Origin: Bacteroidota bacterium
GTDB taxonomy: Bacteria > Bacteroidota > Ignavibacteria > UBA10030 > SZUA-254
Direction of reading: 5' to 3'
Length of the DNA stretch: 64,000 bases
Assembly (NCBI GenBank): GCA_020056225.1
Contig: JAGVIE010000025.1
Location: forward strand, 102,995 to 166,994
The notes beneath the pieces were generated by a model. It was given only the letters and a program-made list of their open reading frames with translations, was not told the DNA's origin and searched no databases. Position numbers and translations under genes: made by a program. Shown one piece after another: positions 3,885-62,351 of the stretch. Each line of letters starts with the position of its first letter. The first letter of the stretch is position 1.

Positions 3885-3958
3885 GGCGGAGTAGCTCAGT
3901 TGGTTAGAGCAATGGAATCATAATCCATGTGTCGGGGGTTCGACTCCCTCCTCCGCTA
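3885..3958 (+). tRNA. tRNA with CAT anticodon (Met, or Ile2 modified by TilS)
   Basis: A 74-base cloverleaf is visible. The acceptor is GGCGGAG/CTCCGCT, the D-arm GCTC...GAGC, and the anticodon stem ATGGA/TCCAT encloses ATCATAA (anticodon CAT). The T-arm is GGGGG-TTCGACT-CCCTC with discriminator A. CCA is not encoded. The 5' base pairs with the 3' strand, so this is not an initiator-type tRNA with an unpaired first base. Elongator tRNA-Met and tRNA-Ile2 both carry CAT. The next gene is tilS, which converts the C34 of tRNA-Ile2 to lysidine, so Ile2 identity is a real possibility. Sequence alone does not settle it. Confidence 0.9.
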
Positions 3959-9188: not shown

Positions 9189-9575
9189 ATGGAAGATTTT
9201 AATAGAAAAAAGATGATCGTCGTCGGAGACAAAGTTCTTGTCATCCCCGATAGCGATAAAGAACGTACCGATGCGGGACTTTATCTTCCAGCAACCGTCA
9301 AAGAAAAAGAAAAAGTTCACAGCGGCTACGTAATAAAAGTTGGTCCCGGTTATCCTGTACCGAATCCAAGTTTCATCGATCAGGAATCATGGTCAACAAC
9401 TCCCAAAGACCCTGTAAAGTACATACCGCTTCAAGTCGAGGAAGGCGATTACGCAATCTTCCTCCGCGATCAAGCGATTGAAATCGAATACGAATTGAAA
9501 AAATATCTCATCGTTTCGCAATCCGCAATCCTAATGGTGATACGCCGAAATCCCATGGAAGGATTAGAGAAGTAG
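9189..9575 (+). CDS. GroES-like (Cpn10-family) protein, divergent and stand-alone
   Basis: A 128-residue protein with the Cpn10 fold pattern: VVGDKVLVIPDSDKERTDAG at the start (the family usually has RPLxDRVLV...EEKTxGG). GLYLPATVKEKEKVHSGYVIKVGPG follows (mobile loop and SGI-like turn), and the end is a beta-strand block with VEEGDYAIFL and YLIVSQSAILMVI. It is about 30 residues longer than typical GroES because of an insert near residues 60-80 (PVPNPSFIDQESWSTTPKDP). No groEL is adjacent. It is therefore probably an accessory co-chaperonin-like protein rather than the main GroES. Its stop codon TAG lies inside the GTAG of a REP-like palindrome. Confidence 0.8.
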   Translation: MEDFNRKKMIVVGDKVLVIPDSDKERTDAGLYLPATVKEKEKVHSGYVIKVGPGYPVPNPSFIDQESWSTTPKDPVKYIPLQVEEGDYAIFLRDQAIEIEYELKKYLIVSQSAILMVIRRNPMEGLEK

Positions 9576-9593
9576 TGCGAACTTCAGTTCGCA
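9572..9593 (+). repeat. REP-like palindrome (GTAG + TGCGAACTT/AGTTCGCA)
   Basis: GTAG is followed by an inverted repeat TGCGAACT-TC-AGTTCGCA. The TAG of GTAG is the stop codon of the GroES-like gene. It belongs to the same family as the palindromes around the RAYT gene. Confidence 0.75.
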
Positions 9594-9626
9594 AACAACG
9601 ATTTAATAGTCACTCAGCACATTTAG

Positions 9627-11321
9627 ATGTTCCTCCCCACAACTAAAGAAGAACTAAGCAAGCTCGGTTGGAAGAAGTTGGATGTCATCATCGTCTCCGG
9701 TGATACGTACATCGATAGCTCGTATTCCGGGACGGCAGTAATTGGGAAAGTTCTTCTCGATGCCGGTTACAAAGTCGGCATCATTGCCCAACCTGATTTT
9801 AAATCAGATAAAGATATTAAACGATTAGGTGAGCCGGAATTATTTTGGGGAGTCACATCCGGCTGTGTAGATTCGATGGTGGCGAACTTCACTGCTTCCA
9901 AGAAACGAAGACGGCAGGATGATTTCACTCCCGGTGGCGTCAACAATAAGCGTCCGGATCGTGCGGTTATTGTTTATTCAAATCTCATCCGCCAGTATTT
10001 CAAGAATACAAAACCGATTGTCATTGGCGGAATTGAAGCGAGCTTACGCCGCATTGCTCATTATGATTATTGGAACGATCGGATCCGCAAATCGATACTG
10101 TTTGATGCGAAGGCAGATATTCTCGTTTATGGAATGGGTGAAAAAGCAATCTTAGAAATCGCCGCACGCTTGCACGCTAACCAACCGACAGAAGATATCC
10201 GCGGCATCTGTTACATCTCGAAATTACCAAAAGAAGGATACACCCATCTTCCATCTTTCAATCAGGCAGCCGATGATAAGAAGAAATTCATCGAGATGTT
10301 CCATTTATTTTACCGGAACAACGATCCCGTAACTGCTAAGGGCTTATGCCAACAGTACGGTGACCGGTATCTTATTCAGAATCCTCCCGCGCGAAATCTT
10401 TCGCAGGATGAAATCGACAAGATTTACAATTTTGATTACGAACGCGACGTCCATCCGTATTATAAAAAAGATGGCGATGTACGCGCGATGGATACAATCC
10501 GTTTCTCGATCACCACACACCGCGGATGTTACGGCGAGTGCAACTTCTGCGCTATCAGCGTCCATCAAGGAACTGCGATAACTTCACGAAGCGAGCAATC
10601 AATAATCCGGGAAGCAAACGAGATCGTTCACGATCCGGGATTTAAAGGATATATTCAGGACGTCGGCGGACCAACTGCAAACATGTACTCGACTAACTGC
10701 GATAAATTGCTGATACATGGGAAATGTGTAAAGAAAGATTGCGTCTTTCCAACGACATGTAAGAATCTTGACAATAATCATCGTCCTCAGATTGAGCTTC
10801 TTAGAAAACTGCGGAAGATCGACGGAGTGAAGAAAGTTTTCGTCGCATCCGGTATCCGGTACGATATGATCATTGATGATAAGGAATTTGGTGATGAATA
10901 TTTGCACGAACTGATCGAGCATCATGTTTCCGGACAACTAAAGATTGCACCTGAACATACAGAAGACAGCGTGCTCGGACTTATGCGTAAACCGGGAGCG
11001 CGGTACCTGACAGAATTTAAGAAACGTTTCGACCGGATCAACGCGAAACAAAAGAAAAACCAATTCCTAACATATTATCTGATCGCCGTACATCCGGGAT
11101 GTTCATTAGAGGATGAAGTTAAAATGAAACAGTTCGTCTCAAAAGAATTGCAGACCAATCCCGAGCAGGTACAAATATTTACACCAACTCCCTCCACCTA
11201 CTCAACATTAATGTATTACACCGAGATGAATCCGTGGACAGGTGAGAAGCTTTTTGTTGAAAAGAATCTTGGTGAGAAAAATAAACGGAAGGAAATAATT
11301 ACCGATCCTAATAAAATGTAA
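9627..11321 (+). CDS. YgiQ-family radical SAM protein
   Basis: A 564-residue protein with N-terminal DVIIVSGDTYIDSSYSG and a B12-binding-like/UPF0313 region including GGIEASLRRIAHYDYW. The radical SAM cluster motif is CYGECNFC (Cys 301, 305, 308), which binds a 4Fe-4S cluster and S-adenosylmethionine. The C-terminal YgiQ block follows (LKIAPEHTEDSVLGLMRKPG and VQIFTPTPSTYSTLMYYT). The length and order fit YgiQ (UPF0313), which is widespread with no firmly established reaction. The last codons ATG TAA form the start of a REP-like repeat. Confidence 0.93.
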   Translation: MFLPTTKEELSKLGWKKLDVIIVSGDTYIDSSYSGTAVIGKVLLDAGYKVGIIAQPDFKSDKDIKRLGEPELFWGVTSGCVDSMVANFTASKKRRRQDDFTPGGVNNKRPDRAVIVYSNLIRQYFKNTKPIVIGGIEASLRRIAHYDYWNDRIRKSILFDAKADILVYGMGEKAILEIAARLHANQPTEDIRGICYISKLPKEGYTHLPSFNQAADDKKKFIEMFHLFYRNNDPVTAKGLCQQYGDRYLIQNPPARNLSQDEIDKIYNFDYERDVHPYYKKDGDVRAMDTIRFSITTHRGCYGECNFCAISVHQGTAITSRSEQSIIREANEIVHDPGFKGYIQDVGGPTANMYSTNCDKLLIHGKCVKKDCVFPTTCKNLDNNHRPQIELLRKLRKIDGVKKVFVASGIRYDMIIDDKEFGDEYLHELIEHHVSGQLKIAPEHTEDSVLGLMRKPGARYLTEFKKRFDRINAKQKKNQFLTYYLIAVHPGCSLEDEVKMKQFVSKELQTNPEQVQIFTPTPSTYSTLMYYTEMNPWTGEKLFVEKNLGEKNKRKEIITDPNKM

Positions 11322-11370
11322 ATCGAACTTCAACTAGATTCTGTAGAACGAAGTGTTACTTCGTTCTACA
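11317..11370. repeat. REP-like composite repeat between convergent radical SAM and RAYT genes
   Basis: AATGTAAATCGAACTT (degenerate first palindrome) is followed by a near-perfect 29-base hairpin at 11342-11370: stem TGTAGAACGAAGT, loop GTT, and its complement. The left end contains the TAA stop of the radical SAM gene and the right end (GTAG on the minus strand) contains the TAG stop of the RAYT gene. A GTAG foot plus hairpin is the defining layout of REP sequences mobilised by RAYTs. Confidence 0.85.
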
Positions 11371-11992
11371 TTTCATATTTGCAGTAACTCCACTTCCACT
11401 TTTGCCAATCATCAACGAACTCCGCTTTTACAGGATTGTTTAATACGTATGAGATGATGTTAGCTAACTCCTTGCCGTTACGTATTACATGATCATAGCT
11501 TTCGTGCTGCCAGAATGCACCTGAACGATTCAGGATTTTATTGCATTCTCTTGCCGTGTAAGCTTTTAAAGATTGTAGCACCCTGTAAAGCGAAGTGCCA
11601 CTTCGCTCTACATCCGCAACCATGTGAACATGATTCGGCATAATACAATAAGCAATCAACTCGTACTCTTTTGTATCACGGAAGTGAATAGCATCAGCCA
11701 CAACTTGCGCCACTCTATCATCGCTTAACCACTTGTGACTATCCGAGTATTTATCCAGAAAGTCATCAAATCTATCAAAATACCGTTTACGATGTTCTTC
11801 AATTGCCGTCCTCTTTGTGTCTGGTTCGTTAATAGCAATTAGTCGTTGTTCTTCAAGTTCATATTCTTCTTTAAGTTTGATAATTACTTCATTCGGCAAA
11901 GAACCTGCGAGACGGAATGTAATAAAATATGATGCATGTGACGGTTGGTAATGAGGTAAGTTACGACGGTAATATATCTTTTCATCTTCCAT
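11366..11992 (-). mobile_element. REP-associated tyrosine transposase (RAYT, Y1/HUH, Transposase_17 type)
   Basis: A 208-residue Y1 transposase of the IS200-related superfamily. RAYTs cut and rejoin single-stranded DNA at REP hairpins and are usually single-copy domesticated genes. The metal-binding HUH motif is at IMPNHVHMVA (His121, His123) and the catalytic tyrosine is probably Tyr145 in LKAYTARECN. The N-terminal HYQPSHASYFITFRLAG and C-terminal YVLNNPVKAEFV are typical of the family. It is flanked on both sides by REP-like palindromes. One such palindrome lies inside the coding sequence, in frame, at residues 128-136. The stop codon sits in the downstream REP. Confidence 0.92.
11584..11612 (-). 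repeat. REP-like palindrome inside the RAYT coding sequence
   Basis: On the minus strand TGTAGAGCGAAGT and ACTTCGCTTTACA form a near-perfect hairpin with a 3-base loop, closely matching the extragenic REP at 11342-11370 and 12067-12095. It is read in frame as VERSGTSLY, between the HUH motif and the catalytic tyrosine. Confidence 0.85.
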
Positions 11993-11998
11993 ATGCTA

Positions 11999-12025
11999 TG
12001 TGAGCGAAATGAATTTCGCTCTACA
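11999..12025 (-). repeat. REP-like palindrome, second sequence type
   Basis: GAGCGAAAT-GA-ATTTCGCTC at 12002-12021. On the minus strand it is preceded by GTAG (12024-12021). It lies just upstream of the RAYT start codon. Confidence 0.75.
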
Positions 12026-12043
12026 ATATAATATTTTCAAAAT

Positions 12044-12066
12044 TGTAAATCGAACTTTAGTTCGGT
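12044..12066 (+). repeat. REP-like palindrome, first sequence type
   Basis: TGTAAAT is followed by CGAAC-TTTA-GTTCG (12051-12064). It is adjacent to the stronger palindrome at 12067 and matches the left half of the composite repeats at 11317 and 15226. Confidence 0.65.
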
Positions 12067-12095
12067 TGTAGAACGAAGTGTCACTTCGTTCTACA
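12067..12095. repeat. REP-like palindrome, near-perfect 29-base hairpin
   Basis: Stem TGTAGAACGAAGT, loop GTC, and complement ACTTCGTTCTACA. It is identical in both stems to the repeat at 11342-11370. Together these two bracket the RAYT gene. Confidence 0.85.
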
Positions 12096-12164
12096 TTTCA
12101 TCTAATTACTCATAACTATGGAAAAATGAGAGGCAAAAACAAATAATTATCAAGCTAAAGTGTA

Positions 12165-12209
12165 TGTAGATCGAACTTCAGTTCGAGATGAGCGAAATAA
12201 ATTTCGCTT
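12165..12209 (+). repeat. composite REP-like repeat, broken at its right end
   Basis: GTAG at 12166 is followed by TCGAACTT/CAGTTCGA (12171-12186) and GAGCGAAAT-AA-ATTTCGCTT (12190-12209). Related copies continue with CTACA or TTACAT. Here the sequence switches after CTTT to the GC-richer dihydroorotase fragment, so the repeat ends at the junction with the apparently foreign DNA. Confidence 0.75.
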
Positions 12210-12773
12210 TGCCGGCGCTACAAAAACGCGACCTACGAGATAAGCCCAAACCACCTTTTCATGTCAACTGACGACATCAGGCGCCTTGGCGAATTGGGCA
12301 AGATAAACCCCCCTCTCCGCGACAAGCGCGAGCAGGCGGCATTGTGGAGGAGCATAAACGACGACACCATAATCTCATCCGACCACGCGCCCCACCTTAT
12401 AGCGCACAAGCTCACAGGCTCGCCCGGGTTTCCCGGCGTGGGAACGCTCCTGCCCCTGATGCTGAACGCAGTGCATGAGAAGAAAATAACAATGGAGCAA
12501 CTGGTGAAAATGTGCGCATACAACCCTTCACAGGCATTCCAGCTGAAAAATAAGGGCTCTCTCGCTCCAGGCTTTGACGCGGACATTGTTCTTGTGGACA
12601 TGAAAAAGAAATGGAGGATAACCGCGGAGAACCGCCTCTCCAAGTGCGGCTGGACGCCATTTGAGGGCAGGGAAGTCTGCGGGAAAATAGAAAAGGTGTT
12701 CCTGCGCGGAAAGCTCGCGTACGACGGGGAAAAAGTGACATCCAAGCCCGGCGAAGGCAGGGAACTGCTCTAG
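12210..12773 (+). pseudogene. dihydroorotase, C-terminal fragment (5' end missing)
   Basis: The reading frame is open from about 12210 with no start codon before conserved sequence begins: RRYKNATYEISPNHLF, then STDDIRRLG. The class I dihydroorotase signatures are clear: SSDHAPH (metal-site Asp and His), LMLNAVHEKKITMEQLV, and CGWTPFEGREVCGKIEKVFLRGK. Dihydroorotase closes the dihydroorotate ring in pyrimidine synthesis. Only about the last 185 residues exist, so the N-terminal metal-binding HxH half is absent. ATG 12261 is internal to the conserved sequence. Codon use (many AGG and ATA, GC-rich third positions) differs from neighbours. It is probably non-functional. Confidence 0.88.
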
Positions 12774-12852
12774 TTTCAGCTTTCTTCTCACAGAAAAAGA
12801 ATCCGATTCAACATCCATTCATCCATCAGAAGCCTTCACGCTGATTTCCGCC
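12774..12852. other. short gap between convergent fragment genes
   Basis: The 79 bases between the dihydroorotase stop and the small Cys-rich gene on the opposite strand show no clear hairpin terminator, promoter or RNA gene. Confidence 0.4.
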
Positions 12853-12972
12853 TCAACCAACGGTGTGGATTTTGCCGTCGCACTTGTCCGCGCTCGTGAT
12901 TTGCGCGCCCTTGCGCTCCTTTTCGCTTACGCGCGTGTCATAGCACCGTTGGCAATATTTTTTCTTTGCCAC
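12853..12972 (-). CDS. 39-residue Cys-containing basic protein, unknown function
   Basis: A GTG at 12972 has a perfect GGAGG seven bases upstream. The frame reads MAKKKYCQRCYDTRVSEKER followed by KGAQITSADKCDGKIHTVG and a TGA stop. A CxxC pair near the start, a further Cys and a late His could bind zinc. The high charge fits a small nucleic-acid-associated protein, but I recognise no family. It lies 48 bp downstream of the 13021 gene on the same strand and inside the segment suspected to be foreign. Its support is the ribosome site and sensible composition, and its short length limits confidence. Confidence 0.45.
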   Translation of the reverse strand: MAKKKYCQRCYDTRVSEKERKGAQITSADKCDGKIHTVG

Positions 12973-13020
12973 AACCAGGCCTCCATGGTTCTTTTTCCAT
13001 CCTGTATTATCCAATGAGTG

Positions 13021-13443
13021 TCAGTCCTGCTTCGACTTGGTGAAGAAATCGGTGGCGGGCGCGTCCTTCTTCATATCTGGTGACTTCTCAGCCTTCTCTT
13101 CGCCTGGCGTCTTTGTCTTGGGTGCTTTCGAGAGAGCATCCTCCCTGACTTTCGACTGTGTCTTCTTCCGTTTTCCACCCTCGGTCTCCTCCTGCTGCGT
13201 TTTTTGCGCCCCGCCGCCCTTGGGCTGGGATTTTGTTTTCTGTGTTTCTATTTCTTTTTGGACATACGTCAGAGTTTCAGTCAATTCCCATGTTTTTAGT
13301 AACTTTTGGAGTCCGTCGTAATCATTACTTTGCCACAATTTCTTGGCGAATCCCACTATGGTGTCTGTCGTTTTTTGGTCATAGCCTTTATTTTTCGATT
13401 CATTCCGAATACTTAGCTCAAGTTGTTTCCATTCCATTTGCAT
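13021..13443 (-). CDS. basic, low-complexity protein of unknown function
   Basis: A 140-residue protein starting at ATG 13443, chosen because GGAGGAG lies just upstream; the frame is open to GTG 13530 without a ribosome site. Residues 1-65 look helical (MQMEWKQLELSIRNESKNKG, then FAKKLWQSNDYDGLQKLLKT). Residues 66-140 are a disordered, Lys/Glu/Gln/Pro-rich tail (QPKGGGAQKTQQEETEGGKR...). No family recognised. It follows the C-terminal end of the 13535 gene closely on the same strand. It lies in the segment with codon use unlike the rest of the window. Confidence 0.6.
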   Translation of the reverse strand: MQMEWKQLELSIRNESKNKGYDQKTTDTIVGFAKKLWQSNDYDGLQKLLKTWELTETLTYVQKEIETQKTKSQPKGGGAQKTQQEETEGGKRKKTQSKVREDALSKAPKTKTPGEEKAEKSPDMKKDAPATDFFTKSKQD

Positions 13444-13534
13444 GGCTCCTCCAGCCAGTATGGGAGTCTTTTTTATGGCATCTTCTTTGATTTCAGTTGC
13501 TTTAAACTGAGTAAATTGAAAAATAAACACAATA

Positions 13535-15160
13535 TTACCTCATTGCAATAGCGTCTGGTAATACTTCTGCCTTAAACTTATCCAACGTGAGTGTTACTTT
13601 TACTTGTTTTTCACCGTCTTTAATTACTTCATCTCTTAAATCGACATGATTTTTGTCCTTACCTTGGCTAAATACTGGCATTACGAGTGGCGGCACGTCT
13701 CCGAAAAGAGTTTTGTAAGTAACGGCTATCACATCCTTGTTATTTGGATTAAGCACGAGTAAAGTTGTCGGAGTTGTTGCTAATGCAGAACCATCTTCGC
13801 TTAGAAATGTTGCTCCTTGGTGGTTAAAGATTTTACTTCCATCGCTTACACTCGTATATGCGAACGTTCCTTTTCTGTTCGGTTCTGGAAAAGCAGCCAA
13901 TATTCCGCTTTCGAATATTAAAAATACTCCGTCACCACCTGTCGTATATATCCTCTGTTTTATCTCGGCATTTGTAGGGATATTTAATTTAAGCTCTCCG
14001 AGATCTATATCCATCGTTACTGTTCCTGCGCCTTTTTTTACGCGGGCGAAGGTCAGAACTCCATCTTTCAGATCTACATCAAAATTTCTCTCTCCAATTA
14101 TTTTTGGCGCTTCAGGTATCTTTATTCTAGCTTGTGGAGGTAGTTTTGTCTCGCTCGCTACCGGCTTGTTCTCGGCAAGCATCCGTTTCTCCTGTTCCTG
14201 CGCGCTTGCGGGCGTGAATGCTGCTCCGCTGGTTGCAAAACATATCTGTGCCTTCAATCCATCGCTGTACCATATCTTATACTCGTAACTTGTCTTTAAA
14301 ACGGAGGACTGAAACAGAACCGCTTTCTCATCGGTTGAGCTTTCAGGCGCGAGAATCGGATTTCCTTCGTACTTTGCCCATGCTACTCCATCCCTTGAAA
14401 CCGCATACCCAATTGCTCGCTGTTTTGCATTGCCAAAATAGAATGCTTCATAATACAAACTATCAGGTAGTACATCGGCGATCCATTGCTCATACTCGTC
14501 CCATGTGCCGGGTGCACCAAATTCCAATAACGGATTGTTGAGCGTATCTTTTGTCCAATGAACACCGTCGGAAGAAACCGCAAGACCTGTGTACCAACGC
14601 GTATCCGAACGAAAACCGTTGTACCACATCTTCCACGTCGTACCTTGCTTCAGAACCGGTCCGGCAGATAAGCCGAAATCATCCCACCAACCCGGAGCTC
14701 CTTTTTTAAGGATAGGGTTATTGGCAGTGTCTTTAGTCCATGAGATTCCTTCGGGCGAGGTGGCATGGCAAATTGTTCCGGCATTTGCAAAGCTACGCGC
14801 AGTGTAGTACATGTGGTATTGTCTGCCGTCAAACAGAACTGCGCCCGGCGAGACAACCATGCCGTCAAGGTTATCACGCTCTCCAATTTTTAGAACGGGA
14901 TTGGCAGGGTGCTTCGCCCAATTGATGCCATCAACCGAAGTAGCATATCCAATTTGTCGAGACGTGTCGTTGGAGCCGGCATACCACATGCGATAGAGTT
15001 TACCATCAAAGAGTATCCTCGGGTGTGAGACTTGTTTGCTCTCCCATGAGCCGGCTGTCCCAAGCCGGAGAACCGGGTTGCCTTCGTATTTAATAAATTG
15101 TGCCTGTGCGGTGAAAGCCGCAGCCAGAAGAAGACATTTAAGAAGAATTGTAGTTTTCAT
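13535..15160 (-). CDS. secreted beta-propeller glycosidase-like protein with an unrelated C-terminal region (probable fusion)
   Basis: A 541-residue frame. A signal peptide (MKTTILLKCLLLAAAFTAQA) is followed by five repeats of the type YEGNPVL...W(D/E)...P.(I/V)L.DG..Y.MWY...IGYATS.DGI.W.K, to about residue 310. These are blades of a GH43/GH130-like five-bladed propeller. From about residue 312 the sequence changes (TPASAQEQEKRMLAENKPVA, then DVDLKDGVLTFARVKKGAGT...) to a beta-rich part with no propeller repeats and no T9SS domain. The codon choice also shifts (ATA for Ile, AGA/AGG for Arg). I infer that two unrelated genes are joined in frame near 14190-14250. The N-terminal part is confident; the C-terminal part is unrecognised. 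Confidence 0.8.
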   Translation of the reverse strand: MKTTILLKCLLLAAAFTAQAQFIKYEGNPVLRLGTAGSWESKQVSHPRILFDGKLYRMWYAGSNDTSRQIGYATSVDGINWAKHPANPVLKIGERDNLDGMVVSPGAVLFDGRQYHMYYTARSFANAGTICHATSPEGISWTKDTANNPILKKGAPGWWDDFGLSAGPVLKQGTTWKMWYNGFRSDTRWYTGLAVSSDGVHWTKDTLNNPLLEFGAPGTWDEYEQWIADVLPDSLYYEAFYFGNAKQRAIGYAVSRDGVAWAKYEGNPILAPESSTDEKAVLFQSSVLKTSYEYKIWYSDGLKAQICFATSGAAFTPASAQEQEKRMLAENKPVASETKLPPQARIKIPEAPKIIGERNFDVDLKDGVLTFARVKKGAGTVTMDIDLGELKLNIPTNAEIKQRIYTTGGDGVFLIFESGILAAFPEPNRKGTFAYTSVSDGSKIFNHQGATFLSEDGSALATTPTTLLVLNPNNKDVIAVTYKTLFGDVPPLVMPVFSQGKDKNHVDLRDEVIKDGEKQVKVTLTLDKFKAEVLPDAIAMR

Positions 15161-15225
15161 ATTATCCCCAATATAATATTCAAATTAAACTAACTTTTAC
15201 AATATTTCCAAGTTCTGCATTTAAA

Positions 15226-15294
15226 TGTAAATCGAACTTCCTCAAAGGGATCCTTCGGACAGTTCGATGTGAGTGAAATGAATTTCGCTTTACA
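15226..15294 (-). repeat. composite REP-like repeat with an internal insert
   Basis: On the plus strand it reads TGTAAATCGAACTT, then an unrelated segment of about 20 bases, then AGTTCGATGTGAGTGAAAT-GA-ATTTCGCTTTACA. It is the same two-palindrome unit as at 12165 and 12000-12064. The TAA stop codon of the Fe-S oxidoreductase gene (15292-15290, minus strand) lies within its GTAA. Confidence 0.75.
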
Positions 15295-17302
15295 TCTCAA
15301 TCCCTTCCAACACTAACTCCGCAATATCCTTTACTTGTACTTTCTCACTCGCTTCTTTATCCTTCACACCGTCAGTCATCATCGTCATACAGAACGGGCA
15401 GGCAGTACCAATTACATCGGGGTTGAGTGTGAGAGCTTCTTCGGTTCGCTCGTGGTTAACTCGCTTGCCAATTGTTTCTTCCATGAACATCCTTGCACCG
15501 CCGGCGCCGCAGCAGAAACCCTTATCGCCGGAACGCTTCATCTCAACTTTCTGTACTCCCGGAATTGCTTTAATCGCTTGCCTTGGTGCATCATATATCT
15601 CGTTGTAACGACCAAGGTAACAGGAATCGTGATAGGTTATCTTTGTTCTCTTTTCTTTCGAGAGTTTTAATTTACCGGTGTTAATTAAACCCATAATGAA
15701 ATCGGTATGGTGCACAACCTCGTACTTGCCGCCGAACTGCGGATACTCATTCTTCATAATGTTAAAGCAGTGCGGGCATGTTGTAACGATCTTTTTGAAT
15801 TTATATTTAGCAATCGTGGCAACATTATCGTTGATGAGCATCTGGGCAAGATACTCATTGCCAGCGCGTCGTGCCGGATCGCCGTTACATTTTTCTTCAG
15901 TGCCGAGAATTGCAAAATCAATTCCTGCAATCTGCATTAGCTTTGAAAATGCCTTTGTTACTTTCTTATATCGTTCATCATACGAGCCGGCACAGCCAAC
16001 CCAGAACAATACATCTACCTCACGCTTGTTTGCCATGAGCGGAATGTTCAGTCCCTCAGCCCAATCGGCACGAGTTGAATGGCTAAACGCCCAAGGTGTG
16101 AAGTTGCGCTCAAGGTTCTGGAACACAACCTGCATCTCTTTCGGGAAACGCGATTCGTTGAGCACAAGATACCGCCGCATATCTACAATCGAATCAATGT
16201 GCTCAATCTGCACCGGACATTCCTGCACACATGCCATACAGGTTGTACAAGCCCAAAGCTCATCCTCTGTAATATAATTATCTATTAAATGTTTATTTAA
16301 GAGATTATCAGTTGACAATTCGCCATTGGCTATTGGCATTTGGCTATTCAAGATGTATGGCGCTTTCTCTAAAAGGCGGTGACGAATATCCACAATTATT
16401 TTCTTCGGAGAGAGCGGCTTACCGGTGATATTTGCCGGGCAAGAAGCAGTGCATCTTCCACACTCTGTACAAGTGTAGCCATCCAACAATTGCTTCCAAG
16501 TTAAATCCTCAACATCCGACGAACCGAACTTTGTTGCGGTTTCGTCTCCAAGATTTAGACTTCTGATACTTCCGCGATTTTCAAGTTTAGCGAGATAAAC
16601 ATTTGGTATCGATGAGAGAATATGAAGATGCTTTGAGTATGGAAGATAATTCATCAAACCTAGTACAAACAATACATGGAGCCACCAAAATATTTCGTAG
16701 TATGTACTCTGCTGCTCAATTGACAGCCCGCTGAATAAACCGGCAAGCTGTATTGATACAAACCTTCCCATGTAAATTGTACAGTGACATTTGGCAAATT
16801 GAGCGGCATTCTGACCAAACATCGAGACCATGATGAGCAATATCACACCAAGGATGAAAGTTGCATCGAATTGCGCATGACCTGTTACTTCGAGTCGTTT
16901 TGGACGAATGATATATCTTCGGAACAATGCAAAGAGAACCGATCCTATCACTAATAATCCGAATAAATCCTGAAGCGCGGTGAGATAAAGATACACTCCG
17001 CCCAAGAATGAAAAATCGAATCCGGGATATAATCCTTCACCAATCGATTCGAGAATCGCTAACAAGAGAACAACGAAACCCCAGAATATCAGGAAGTGCA
17101 TAATACCTGCAACCGGCTCACGGAGTAATTTCGTCTGACCGAAAGCAACATTCATTACATTTCTCAGCCGTTGCGTCAAATTACCTGATCGGTTTTCCGG
17201 TTTACCAATTTTTAAATATGAAATTAGTTTCCTGACATTAAATCCGAATAATAATAATGATCCAATAAAGATCAATAGGAAAATGATAATTTTAATCGCC
17301 AT
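15290..17302 (-). CDS. membrane Fe-S oxidoreductase (HdrD/DsrMK/NarI-like fusion)
   Basis: A 670-residue protein. Residues 1-230 hold about five membrane helices of the nitrate-reductase-gamma/cytochrome b type. Two 4Fe-4S ferredoxin motifs follow (CTECGRCTASCP near 277 and CTTCMACVQECP near 351). Two cysteine-rich CCG-type domains complete it (HDSCYLGRY near 556, FCCGAGGARM near 593, with CPHCF and CPFCM partners). This layout is that of quinone-linked heterodisulfide-reductase-like oxidoreductases, which pass electrons between the quinone pool and a soluble donor; the partner is unknown. Residues about 318-326 are encoded by a repetitive DNA stretch (16325-16348) that looks inserted in frame. 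The stop codon lies in a REP-like repeat. Confidence 0.9.
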   Translation of the reverse strand: MAIKIIIFLLIFIGSLLLFGFNVRKLISYLKIGKPENRSGNLTQRLRNVMNVAFGQTKLLREPVAGIMHFLIFWGFVVLLLAILESIGEGLYPGFDFSFLGGVYLYLTALQDLFGLLVIGSVLFALFRRYIIRPKRLEVTGHAQFDATFILGVILLIMVSMFGQNAAQFAKCHCTIYMGRFVSIQLAGLFSGLSIEQQSTYYEIFWWLHVLFVLGLMNYLPYSKHLHILSSIPNVYLAKLENRGSIRSLNLGDETATKFGSSDVEDLTWKQLLDGYTCTECGRCTASCPANITGKPLSPKKIIVDIRHRLLEKAPYILNSQMPIANGELSTDNLLNKHLIDNYITEDELWACTTCMACVQECPVQIEHIDSIVDMRRYLVLNESRFPKEMQVVFQNLERNFTPWAFSHSTRADWAEGLNIPLMANKREVDVLFWVGCAGSYDERYKKVTKAFSKLMQIAGIDFAILGTEEKCNGDPARRAGNEYLAQMLINDNVATIAKYKFKKIVTTCPHCFNIMKNEYPQFGGKYEVVHHTDFIMGLINTGKLKLSKEKRTKITYHDSCYLGRYNEIYDAPRQAIKAIPGVQKVEMKRSGDKGFCCGAGGARMFMEETIGKRVNHERTEEALTLNPDVIGTACPFCMTMMTDGVKDKEASEKVQVKDIAELVLEGIEM

Positions 17303-57028: not shown

Positions 57029-57102
57029 CACGTCAGGAGGGAGTCGAACCCCCAACCTGCGGTTTTGGAGACCGCTGCTCTAGCCAATTGAGCTACTGAC
57101 GT
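57029..57102 (-). tRNA. tRNA-Trp (CCA)
   Basis: A 74-base cloverleaf on the minus strand: acceptor ACGTCAG/CTGACGT, D-arm GCTC...GAGC, anticodon stem GCGGT/ACCGC with loop CTCCAAA (anticodon CCA), T-loop TTCGACT, discriminator G. It lies between rpmG and secE, the usual position of tRNA-Trp in many bacteria. Confidence 0.95.
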
Positions 57103-61631: not shown

Positions 61632-62351
61632 ATGAGAACGAAACTGATATTTATTACTATCCTACTTGCGACATATCTCGGAATTGCTCAGCAAGATTCT
61701 GTCTTCGCCACTGTTTCCGGGGATACTGTTACGATTTGGAACATGGATATTGAGGAAAACTGTGCCTCCATATTTACTCACTCCATCGTAATGCTCGACA
61801 GCAACGTCATCGTTCTAACCGAGACAGATACATTAGGACCAATTGCAAATTGTATATGTAAGTTTGATCTTCAACTCCAATTAATAGGTTTAGGTGTTGG
61901 TCATTATACGGTGGAAGTGTTTCGTGCGTACCTTTCAAAATTCAATTATCCGAAAGACAATACTATATTTATCGGTTCGACGAGCTTCGATATTGGAAAT
62001 ACTTTTTCTCCACTAATTACAGAACGATTTTACCAAAGCCACTGCGGTGGTTGTGTAGGCGTAAACACATCAGGGATGGATGAATTCACAAATTATTCAT
62101 TATTGCAAAACTATCCTAACCCATTCAATCCAAGCACAACAATCCACTTCGAGCTACCAAAAGAATCACATGTTACACTAAAGGTGTACAACATGGTTGG
62201 ACAGGAAGTGATGTCTGTGTTGGATGAGGAGAAAGTTGCGGGAAGATATGATTTGAAAATAGATGGAACTCAGCTCGCAAGCAGTGTTTATTACTACAGA
62301 TTGATTGCAGGTGATTATATCTTGACAAAGAAATTCGTACTTCTCAAATAG
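61632..62351 (+). CDS. secreted protein with T9SS type A sorting domain
   Basis: 239 residues with GAGGAG just upstream of ATG 61632. There is a signal peptide (MRTKLIFITILLATYLGIAQ) and a mature part of about 130 residues with no recognised fold. The C-terminal sorting domain of about 80 residues follows: LLQNYPNPFNPSTTIHFELP, VTLKVYNMVGQEVMSVLDEE, and YYRLIAGDYILTKKFVLLK. The type IX secretion system exports proteins bearing this domain to the cell surface. The function of the passenger part is unknown. Confidence 0.93.
   Translation: MRTKLIFITILLATYLGIAQQDSVFATVSGDTVTIWNMDIEENCASIFTHSIVMLDSNVIVLTETDTLGPIANCICKFDLQLQLIGLGVGHYTVEVFRAYLSKFNYPKDNTIFIGSTSFDIGNTFSPLITERFYQSHCGGCVGVNTSGMDEFTNYSLLQNYPNPFNPSTTIHFELPKESHVTLKVYNMVGQEVMSVLDEEKVAGRYDLKIDGTQLASSVYYYRLIAGDYILTKKFVLLK

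Follow-up and report, generated by a model that had tools for sequence, protein, structure and literature searches.

The stop codons of four neighboring genes are supplied by REP-like repeats in the 64,000-nt stretch of Bacteroidota DNA analyzed here (the window). Each stop is the TAA, or the amber codon TAG, of the repeat's own GTAA or GTAG (GTAR) foot, and in a REP-rich genome such feet lie exactly at stops far more often than uniform placement predicts. By a narrow preference, we read the repeats as GTAR-tagged elements of a RAYT (REP-associated Y1 transposase-like) unit in which the built-in stop is probably a by-product of the recognition motif and gene ends are safe landing sites.

Four stops inside repeat feet

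The first-pass annotation had claimed that four stops are the TAR of a GTAR foot, and this was confirmed for the GroES-like, radical SAM, RAYT, and Fe-S oxidoreductase genes. The features concerned are the following.

9189-9575, plus strand: GroES-like (Cpn10) gene, PF00166
9572-9591, plus strand: single REP-like hairpin with foot GTAG, family D3; TAG at 9573-9575 is the GroES-like stop
9627-11321, plus strand: radical SAM gene, YgiQ-like (Radical_SAM_N), PF08497 and PF04055
11318-11337, plus strand: degenerate REP-like copy with foot GTAA (D3, D4); TAA at 11319-11321 is the radical SAM stop
11342-11370, minus strand: full palindrome with a foot on both strands (D1, I1); minus-strand TAG at 11366-11368 is the RAYT stop
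11366-11992, minus strand: RAYT gene, 208 aa, PF01797
11584-11612, minus strand: palindrome within the RAYT gene, same as 11342-11370, in the stop-free frame GTA GAG CGA (D1)
11998-12025, minus strand: REP-like hairpin just 5' of the RAYT start, foot GTAG (D2)
12044-12095, plus strand: REP-like pair, GTAAATCGAACTTTAGTTCG and a full palindrome, from the repeat and foot search
12165-12213, plus strand: REP-like pair, GTAGATCGAACTTCAGTTCG and GAGCGAAATAAATTTCGC, from the repeat and foot search
15226-15294, minus strand: REP-like pair (D2, D4); minus-strand TAA at 15290-15292 is the Fe-S oxidoreductase stop
15290-17302, minus strand: Fe-S oxidoreductase gene (CCG and 4Fe-4S domains), from the ORF and domain matches

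The repeats are short palindromes (20-40 bp) with an unpaired GTAG-type tag, GTAG or GTAA, at one end. The GroES-like gene ends AAG TAG, followed by TGCGAACTTCAGTTCGCA. The radical SAM gene ends ATG TAA, followed by ATCGAACTTCAAC, a degenerate copy whose hairpin was rejected by the hairpin-calling scripts. The RAYT gene closes with ATG TAG and then AACGAAGTAACACTTCGTT, and the Fe-S oxidoreductase gene with ATG TAA and then AGCGAAATTCATTTCACT, an imperfect hairpin.

Fourteen GTAR feet were found in the window. The one at 62157 is a chance match without a hairpin; the remaining 13 all fall within 9572-15293, where four are stop codons and two are the two strands of the palindrome inside the RAYT gene. 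The four coincidences exceed chance: independent uniform placement in gaps of 51, 44, and 129 nt gives a probability of very roughly 1e-6 to 1e-7, a post hoc figure from hand arithmetic in which the RAYT and Fe-S cases are not independent. The genome-wide count in relatives is the better-founded test.

Spread of the repeats in the genome and its kin

Pattern searches of the 3.5-Mb genome found the window family nowhere outside this 6 kb. One exact pattern had two matches in the whole genome, both in the window. A second, allowing up to 2 mismatches, had 16, of which the six exact ones all lie in the window and the other 10 carry two mismatches, lie elsewhere, and look like chance (3 in the control). 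Many dispersed copies in the genome are not seen for these repeats, which are therefore classed as REP-like elements of a RAYT unit and not as a dispersed REP family. Because the copies are only local, the genome that holds them yields no genome-wide stop-codon statistics. The same hairpin occurs in 3 of 15 genomes in a scan of the family and in 3 of 296 in a scan of the phylum, in few copies each.

Within a 400-kb sample of this genome, a hairpin abuts 5 of 41 GTAR stops, 2 of 185 other TAR stops, and 0 of 80 TGA stops (P 0.0025), in a sample biased by having been chosen to hold the window and the RAYT contigs, so that two of the five cases are the window's own. A 400-kb sample of the relative G011 gave 3 of 48, 2 of 173, and 0 of 91, which is not significant (P 0.07). 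A second REP family in this genome, AGTCCG, is dispersed in few copies. It has 22 matches, 19 with loci; six showed no clear hairpin on inspection and were set aside, and two of the 13 feet kept are stops. These two are the ends of a single pair (C32:2594-2653; L220 2593-2654, G000:C32) that lies between convergent genes and supplies the stops of both. AGTCCG feet are at stops in 1 of 7 cases in G011 and 0 of 1 in the relative G010.

Genome-wide counts

Matches to GTARNNCGATTTNNNAAATCG, the search pattern, number 133 in G322 (Anaerolineae bacterium CHL1, the genome of locus L077), 274 in G321 (the genome of locus L078), and 31 in G323. Among the matches listed, 100 feet of the 133 were examined in G322 (56 stretches) and 51 in G321 (31 stretches). 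ORFs were called mechanically (80-100 aa, longest first) and are unannotated, except in Escherichia coli. The enrichment of feet at stops that the first-pass annotation had proposed is present in G322: 21 of the 100 feet lie exactly at a stop (offset 0), against 1.05 expected from uniform intergenic placement (P 2e-20). Another 14 lie at offsets of 1-30 and none at -9 to -1. In only two cases does an ORF run into the foot out of frame (a read-in), whereas random frames predict two such cases for each in-frame one (P 1e-8). The G321 count is 5 of 51 at offset 0, with 0.16 expected and one read-in.

The REP core abuts 21 of 95 GTAR stops and 0 of 160 other stops in the G322 stretches, a contrast that is partly true by construction. 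Similarly, the finding that 0 of 36 GTAR-less sides have offset 0 is almost built into the definition. A fairer comparison takes offsets of 0-30, which include 35 of 100 foot sides and 6 of 36 sides without GTAR. Of 10 G322 stop genes (from the 21) compared with Pfam, nine match a family and seven of these come within 3 positions of the profile end, so the proteins are not grossly truncated.

The habit of supplying stops is not universal. Some bacteria show it strongly and precisely, and the E. coli sample only weakly. Seven 50-kb stretches of E. coli K-12 (350 kb) hold 47 feet, which end an unannotated ORF of 86 aa and, among the annotated genes, mutT alone. In mutT, the stop is the TAG of a REP's GTAG foot (L422 11430-11433).

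RAYT loci and the RAYT unit

Of 309 confirmed RAYT relatives 80 were kept, and 78 of these have enough sequence to show the RAYT stop. In 22 of the 78 loci, this stop is a GTAR and has a hairpin no more than 4 nt away; a hairpin follows a non-GTAR stop in three, GTAR stands without such a hairpin in 19, and 34 have neither. When a co-directional gene ends within 400 nt before the RAYT gene, its stop is a REP foot in 14 of 55 loci, and both stops are REP feet in seven of the 55. The association extends to the 544 other ORFs of these loci: a hairpin lies no more than 4 nt from the stop of 31 of the 132 with GTAR and of 15 of the 412 without (P 9e-11). Repeated GTAR hairpins at non-RAYT genes of the 80 loci show the same peak, with the foot at offset 0 from the nearest same-strand stop in 20 of 73 cases, no other single offset above 4, and 11 feet read into out of frame. 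The frame bias is thus milder in RAYT loci (20 in frame to 11 read-ins) than in G322. In L078, four genes of one 12.6-kb locus, the RAYT gene aside, end in REP feet.

The window's RAYT matches the Y1 transposase domain PF01797 (E 2.9e-9). In an alignment of 12 RAYTs, its HUH residues H121 and H123 are invariant, as are three candidates for the catalytic tyrosine, Y166, Y182, and Y203. The gene is flanked by inverted REPs at 11342-11370 and 11998-12025. In the relative G009, the RAYT gene has a larger in-frame REP cluster at the place of the window's intragenic palindrome (L023 1145-1230), and in both genes the internal REPs are read in a stop-free frame.

The order in G009 is the Fe-S gene ending TTG TAG, 29 nt, and the RAYT gene ending TTG TAG, then hairpins. 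The window has the same order of Fe-S gene and RAYT, but with 3.3 kb of other DNA between them. Given the adjacency in G009, two of the four window cases belong to a single RAYT unit, the Fe-S stop marking its left end and the RAYT stop its right. The intervening DNA includes a GC-richer block at 12233-13530 (about 50-55%, compared with 36-45% around it) that holds the C-terminal part of a dihydroorotase-like amidohydrolase (12261-12773) and has no counterpart between the Fe-S gene and RAYT in G009. It looks like an insertion between REPs or an assembly joint. A 541-aa protein with GH130/GH32N-like matches (13535-15160) directly adjoins the Fe-S gene.

C-termini of orthologues

Orthologues give a mixed picture: at some genes the repeat lies against an old stop, and at others it introduces a new one. 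GroES proteins of G010, G011, G009, G006, and G004 end at the same last residue as that of the window, with stops TAA, TAA, TAG, TAG, and TGA, and lack this repeat at the stop; the GroES stop is therefore older than the repeat. The window's Fe-S protein is 0-5 residues shorter than seven family relatives with complete ends and no REP foot (G003, G005, G007, G008, G010, G011, and G014) and alone among these ends in Met. The G009 Fe-S protein, which has a hairpin, ends in Leu.

The radical SAM gene ygiQ was found in 12 of 40 genomes. It ends NKM TAA in the window and NKL TAG in both G011 and G010, with three different hairpins at one stop; in G009 it has no hairpin and is nine or ten residues longer. 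Another G011 gene (L241) has gained a Met in the same way, ending RRM TAA before a hairpin where its counterpart in the window's genome ends RR TAA. In these alignments, a new repeat-borne stop costs a gene a few residues. The first-pass annotation was right that proteins end in Met owing to the repeat: by the orthologues, the last Met comes with it in three of the four cases. Annotators should be aware that a C-terminus next to a REP, frequently Met or Leu, may be determined by the repeat.

Relation to described REPs

The first-pass annotation knew of no description of stop-supplying by REPs, but it is already in print: according to Di Nocera, De Gregorio, and Rocco (2013; PMC3733652), the ends of GTAG-tagged REPs "often provide" a gene's TAG stop. 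As in the window, those GTAG-tagged REPs are palindromes with an unpaired GTAG-type tag and lie close behind genes; unlike their GTAG, the window feet are both GTAG and GTAA (PMC3733652). In the available parts of that paper, the statement on stops comes without a count, control, frame analysis, or orthologues (PMC3733652). Counts or frame tests of REP-supplied stops were not recognized in the open-access literature searched. This analysis adds a measurement of the spike at zero offset and of its frame bias, a stop that has been used more than once, and copies of gene 3' ends next to REPs.

The window also resembles a REPtron, as that is described in the accessible text of Nunvar (2010; PMC2817692) and Bertels and Rainey (2011; PMC3116915), in having a RAYT with inverted REPs on both sides, REPs near or directly behind the rayt stop, and a local excess of REPs round the gene. 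The rayt 3' ends captured in BIMEs in that work are akin to the gene-end copies described below (PMC2817692, PMC3116915). Unlike in a REPtron, the window's REPs end the gene before RAYT and two further neighbors, and the family was not found dispersed. E. coli REPs within 15 nt of stops (RepRanger paper, PMC12306157, its reference 17) likewise place a hairpin beside a stop, with ribosome stalling proposed, as far as the available text goes. Those REPs lie near a stop, whereas the window REP's own foot is the stop.

How feet may come to lie at stops

An explanation must cover the coincidence, the spike at offset zero, the frame bias, and the mixed orthologue histories. The element carries GTAG or GTAA directly 5' of the hairpin because RAYTs recognize this tetranucleotide and probably use it as a guide (PMC8266576, where GTAG is the recognition motif). 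RAYT-driven dispersal would drop hairpins near gene ends, with transposition by this RAYT as the presumed source in the window. A copy landing at or just before a gene end with TAR in frame would give a clean stop, change a few residues at most, and survive. In the other two frames, ribosomes would read into the hairpin and most copies would be lost, so that selection may account for the frame bias and the spike at zero could arise from this alone. The RAYT unit would use the stop at both ends, its left REP ending the preceding gene and its right REP the RAYT.

Under uniform landing, the G322 spike would need a tolerated loss of ∼15-20 codons (an estimate from 12 feet at offsets 6-12). The orthologues show smaller losses than this, and survival may therefore be supplemented by a slight bias toward stops or gene ends or by some advantage of the hairpin. 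Counting against survival as the explanation are GroES, where nothing was carried in, the weak E. coli count, the undispersed window family, and the milder frame bias in RAYT loci. The relatives compared yielded no clean empty site whose junction could be resolved. The earlier idea of repeats that insert at or replace gene ends with a selected stop holds insofar as GTAR feet are at stops above chance and in-frame copies are favored; it fails for GroES, whose stop the repeat did not bring.

Three different hairpins at ygiQ are more than expected from random landing, which points weakly to a hotspot or to replacement in place. A more ambitious proposal, which we offer tentatively and with considerable doubt, is that stops are preferred docking sites of RAYT units and GTAR is a portable stop: units would dock stop-to-stop behind genes, unrelated REP families would re-use one stop, and hairpins would be swapped in place with the foot kept. 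On either reading, a transposase recognition motif that is also a stop would explain the placement of REPs (gene 3' ends, one orientation) without a host function. A simple measure for any genome is the number of feet exactly at stops relative to feet read into out of frame.

Clearly less probable than survival is that the RAYT machinery inserts hairpins at or 3' of existing stop sequences, so that the gene's own stop becomes the foot. The older GroES stop, the three hairpins of ygiQ, and the G322 spike at exactly 0 with nothing at -9 to -1 all fit. So does a gene before RAYT that has the hairpin in L093 and L075 and ends NNG TAR without it in L095 and L085, although an NNG TAR with no hairpin might just as well be what remains after a REP was lost. 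Against insertion at existing stops, no particular base precedes GTAR in the 26 G322 and G321 stop cases, the C-terminus is altered in the Fe-S and G011 cases, and the REP literature, in its accessible part, counts the GTAR foot as part of the element, with cleavage at CT or CA (PMC8266576).

Selection may instead have kept the hairpin because its position against the stop modulates translation or shields the 3' end of the mRNA, which we consider unlikely. REPs within 15 nt of a stop are reported to stall ribosomes and lower translation (PMC12306157, from its available text), and among the matches listed, orthologous stops keep GTAR and a hairpin of changed sequence (L060/L070/L090 and L053/L078/G322). 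However, most of these kept cases mark the left end of the RAYT unit and would persist along with RAYT, and the genes concerned have no function in common. Terminator-like sites in the region are not above shuffles (5 versus 6.2). RNA folding at the four stops gave z-scores of -1.85, -4.39, -3.87, and -2.13, to which little weight is given because the fold at the Fe-S stop lacks the REP hairpin of that site.

It is improbable that REP-linked copying, which would duplicate gene 3' ends together with a REP and spread some stop-plus-REP units with a piece of gene, explains the pattern. Such copies exist: the last 25 codons, stop, and REP pair stand in tandem in L083 (3145-3270, 88% identical), 95 nt of the upstream gene lie between two REPs in L277 (1502-1660), and G010 ygiQ has 73 nt of its own 3' region (78% identical) behind the REP pair. 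In addition, four captures of rayt 3' ends are described (Nunvar 2010, PMC2817692, in the text available). Gene-end copies nevertheless occur in only 5 of 97 REP-stop genes versus 14 of 1945 others (P 0.0015), the latter including a similar case in L011 without a REP foot. Two of the five were removed, L057 as a repeat array and L329 as a paralogous neighbor; the three accepted against the uncleaned 14 give P 0.04.

The locality of the repeat family, the derivation of two cases from one RAYT unit, and the age of the GroES stop could be cited for a chance cluster in the window that follows no general rule. Given the genome-wide spike in G322 and the RAYT-locus statistics, this is very improbable.

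Copies of a gene's own 3' coding region directly behind its REP stop are thus noted in L083, L277, and, on the reverse strand from 3232, L108. In the window, 3890-3952 and 57035-57097 form a 63-nt inverted repeat pair, 78% complementary and 53 kb apart.
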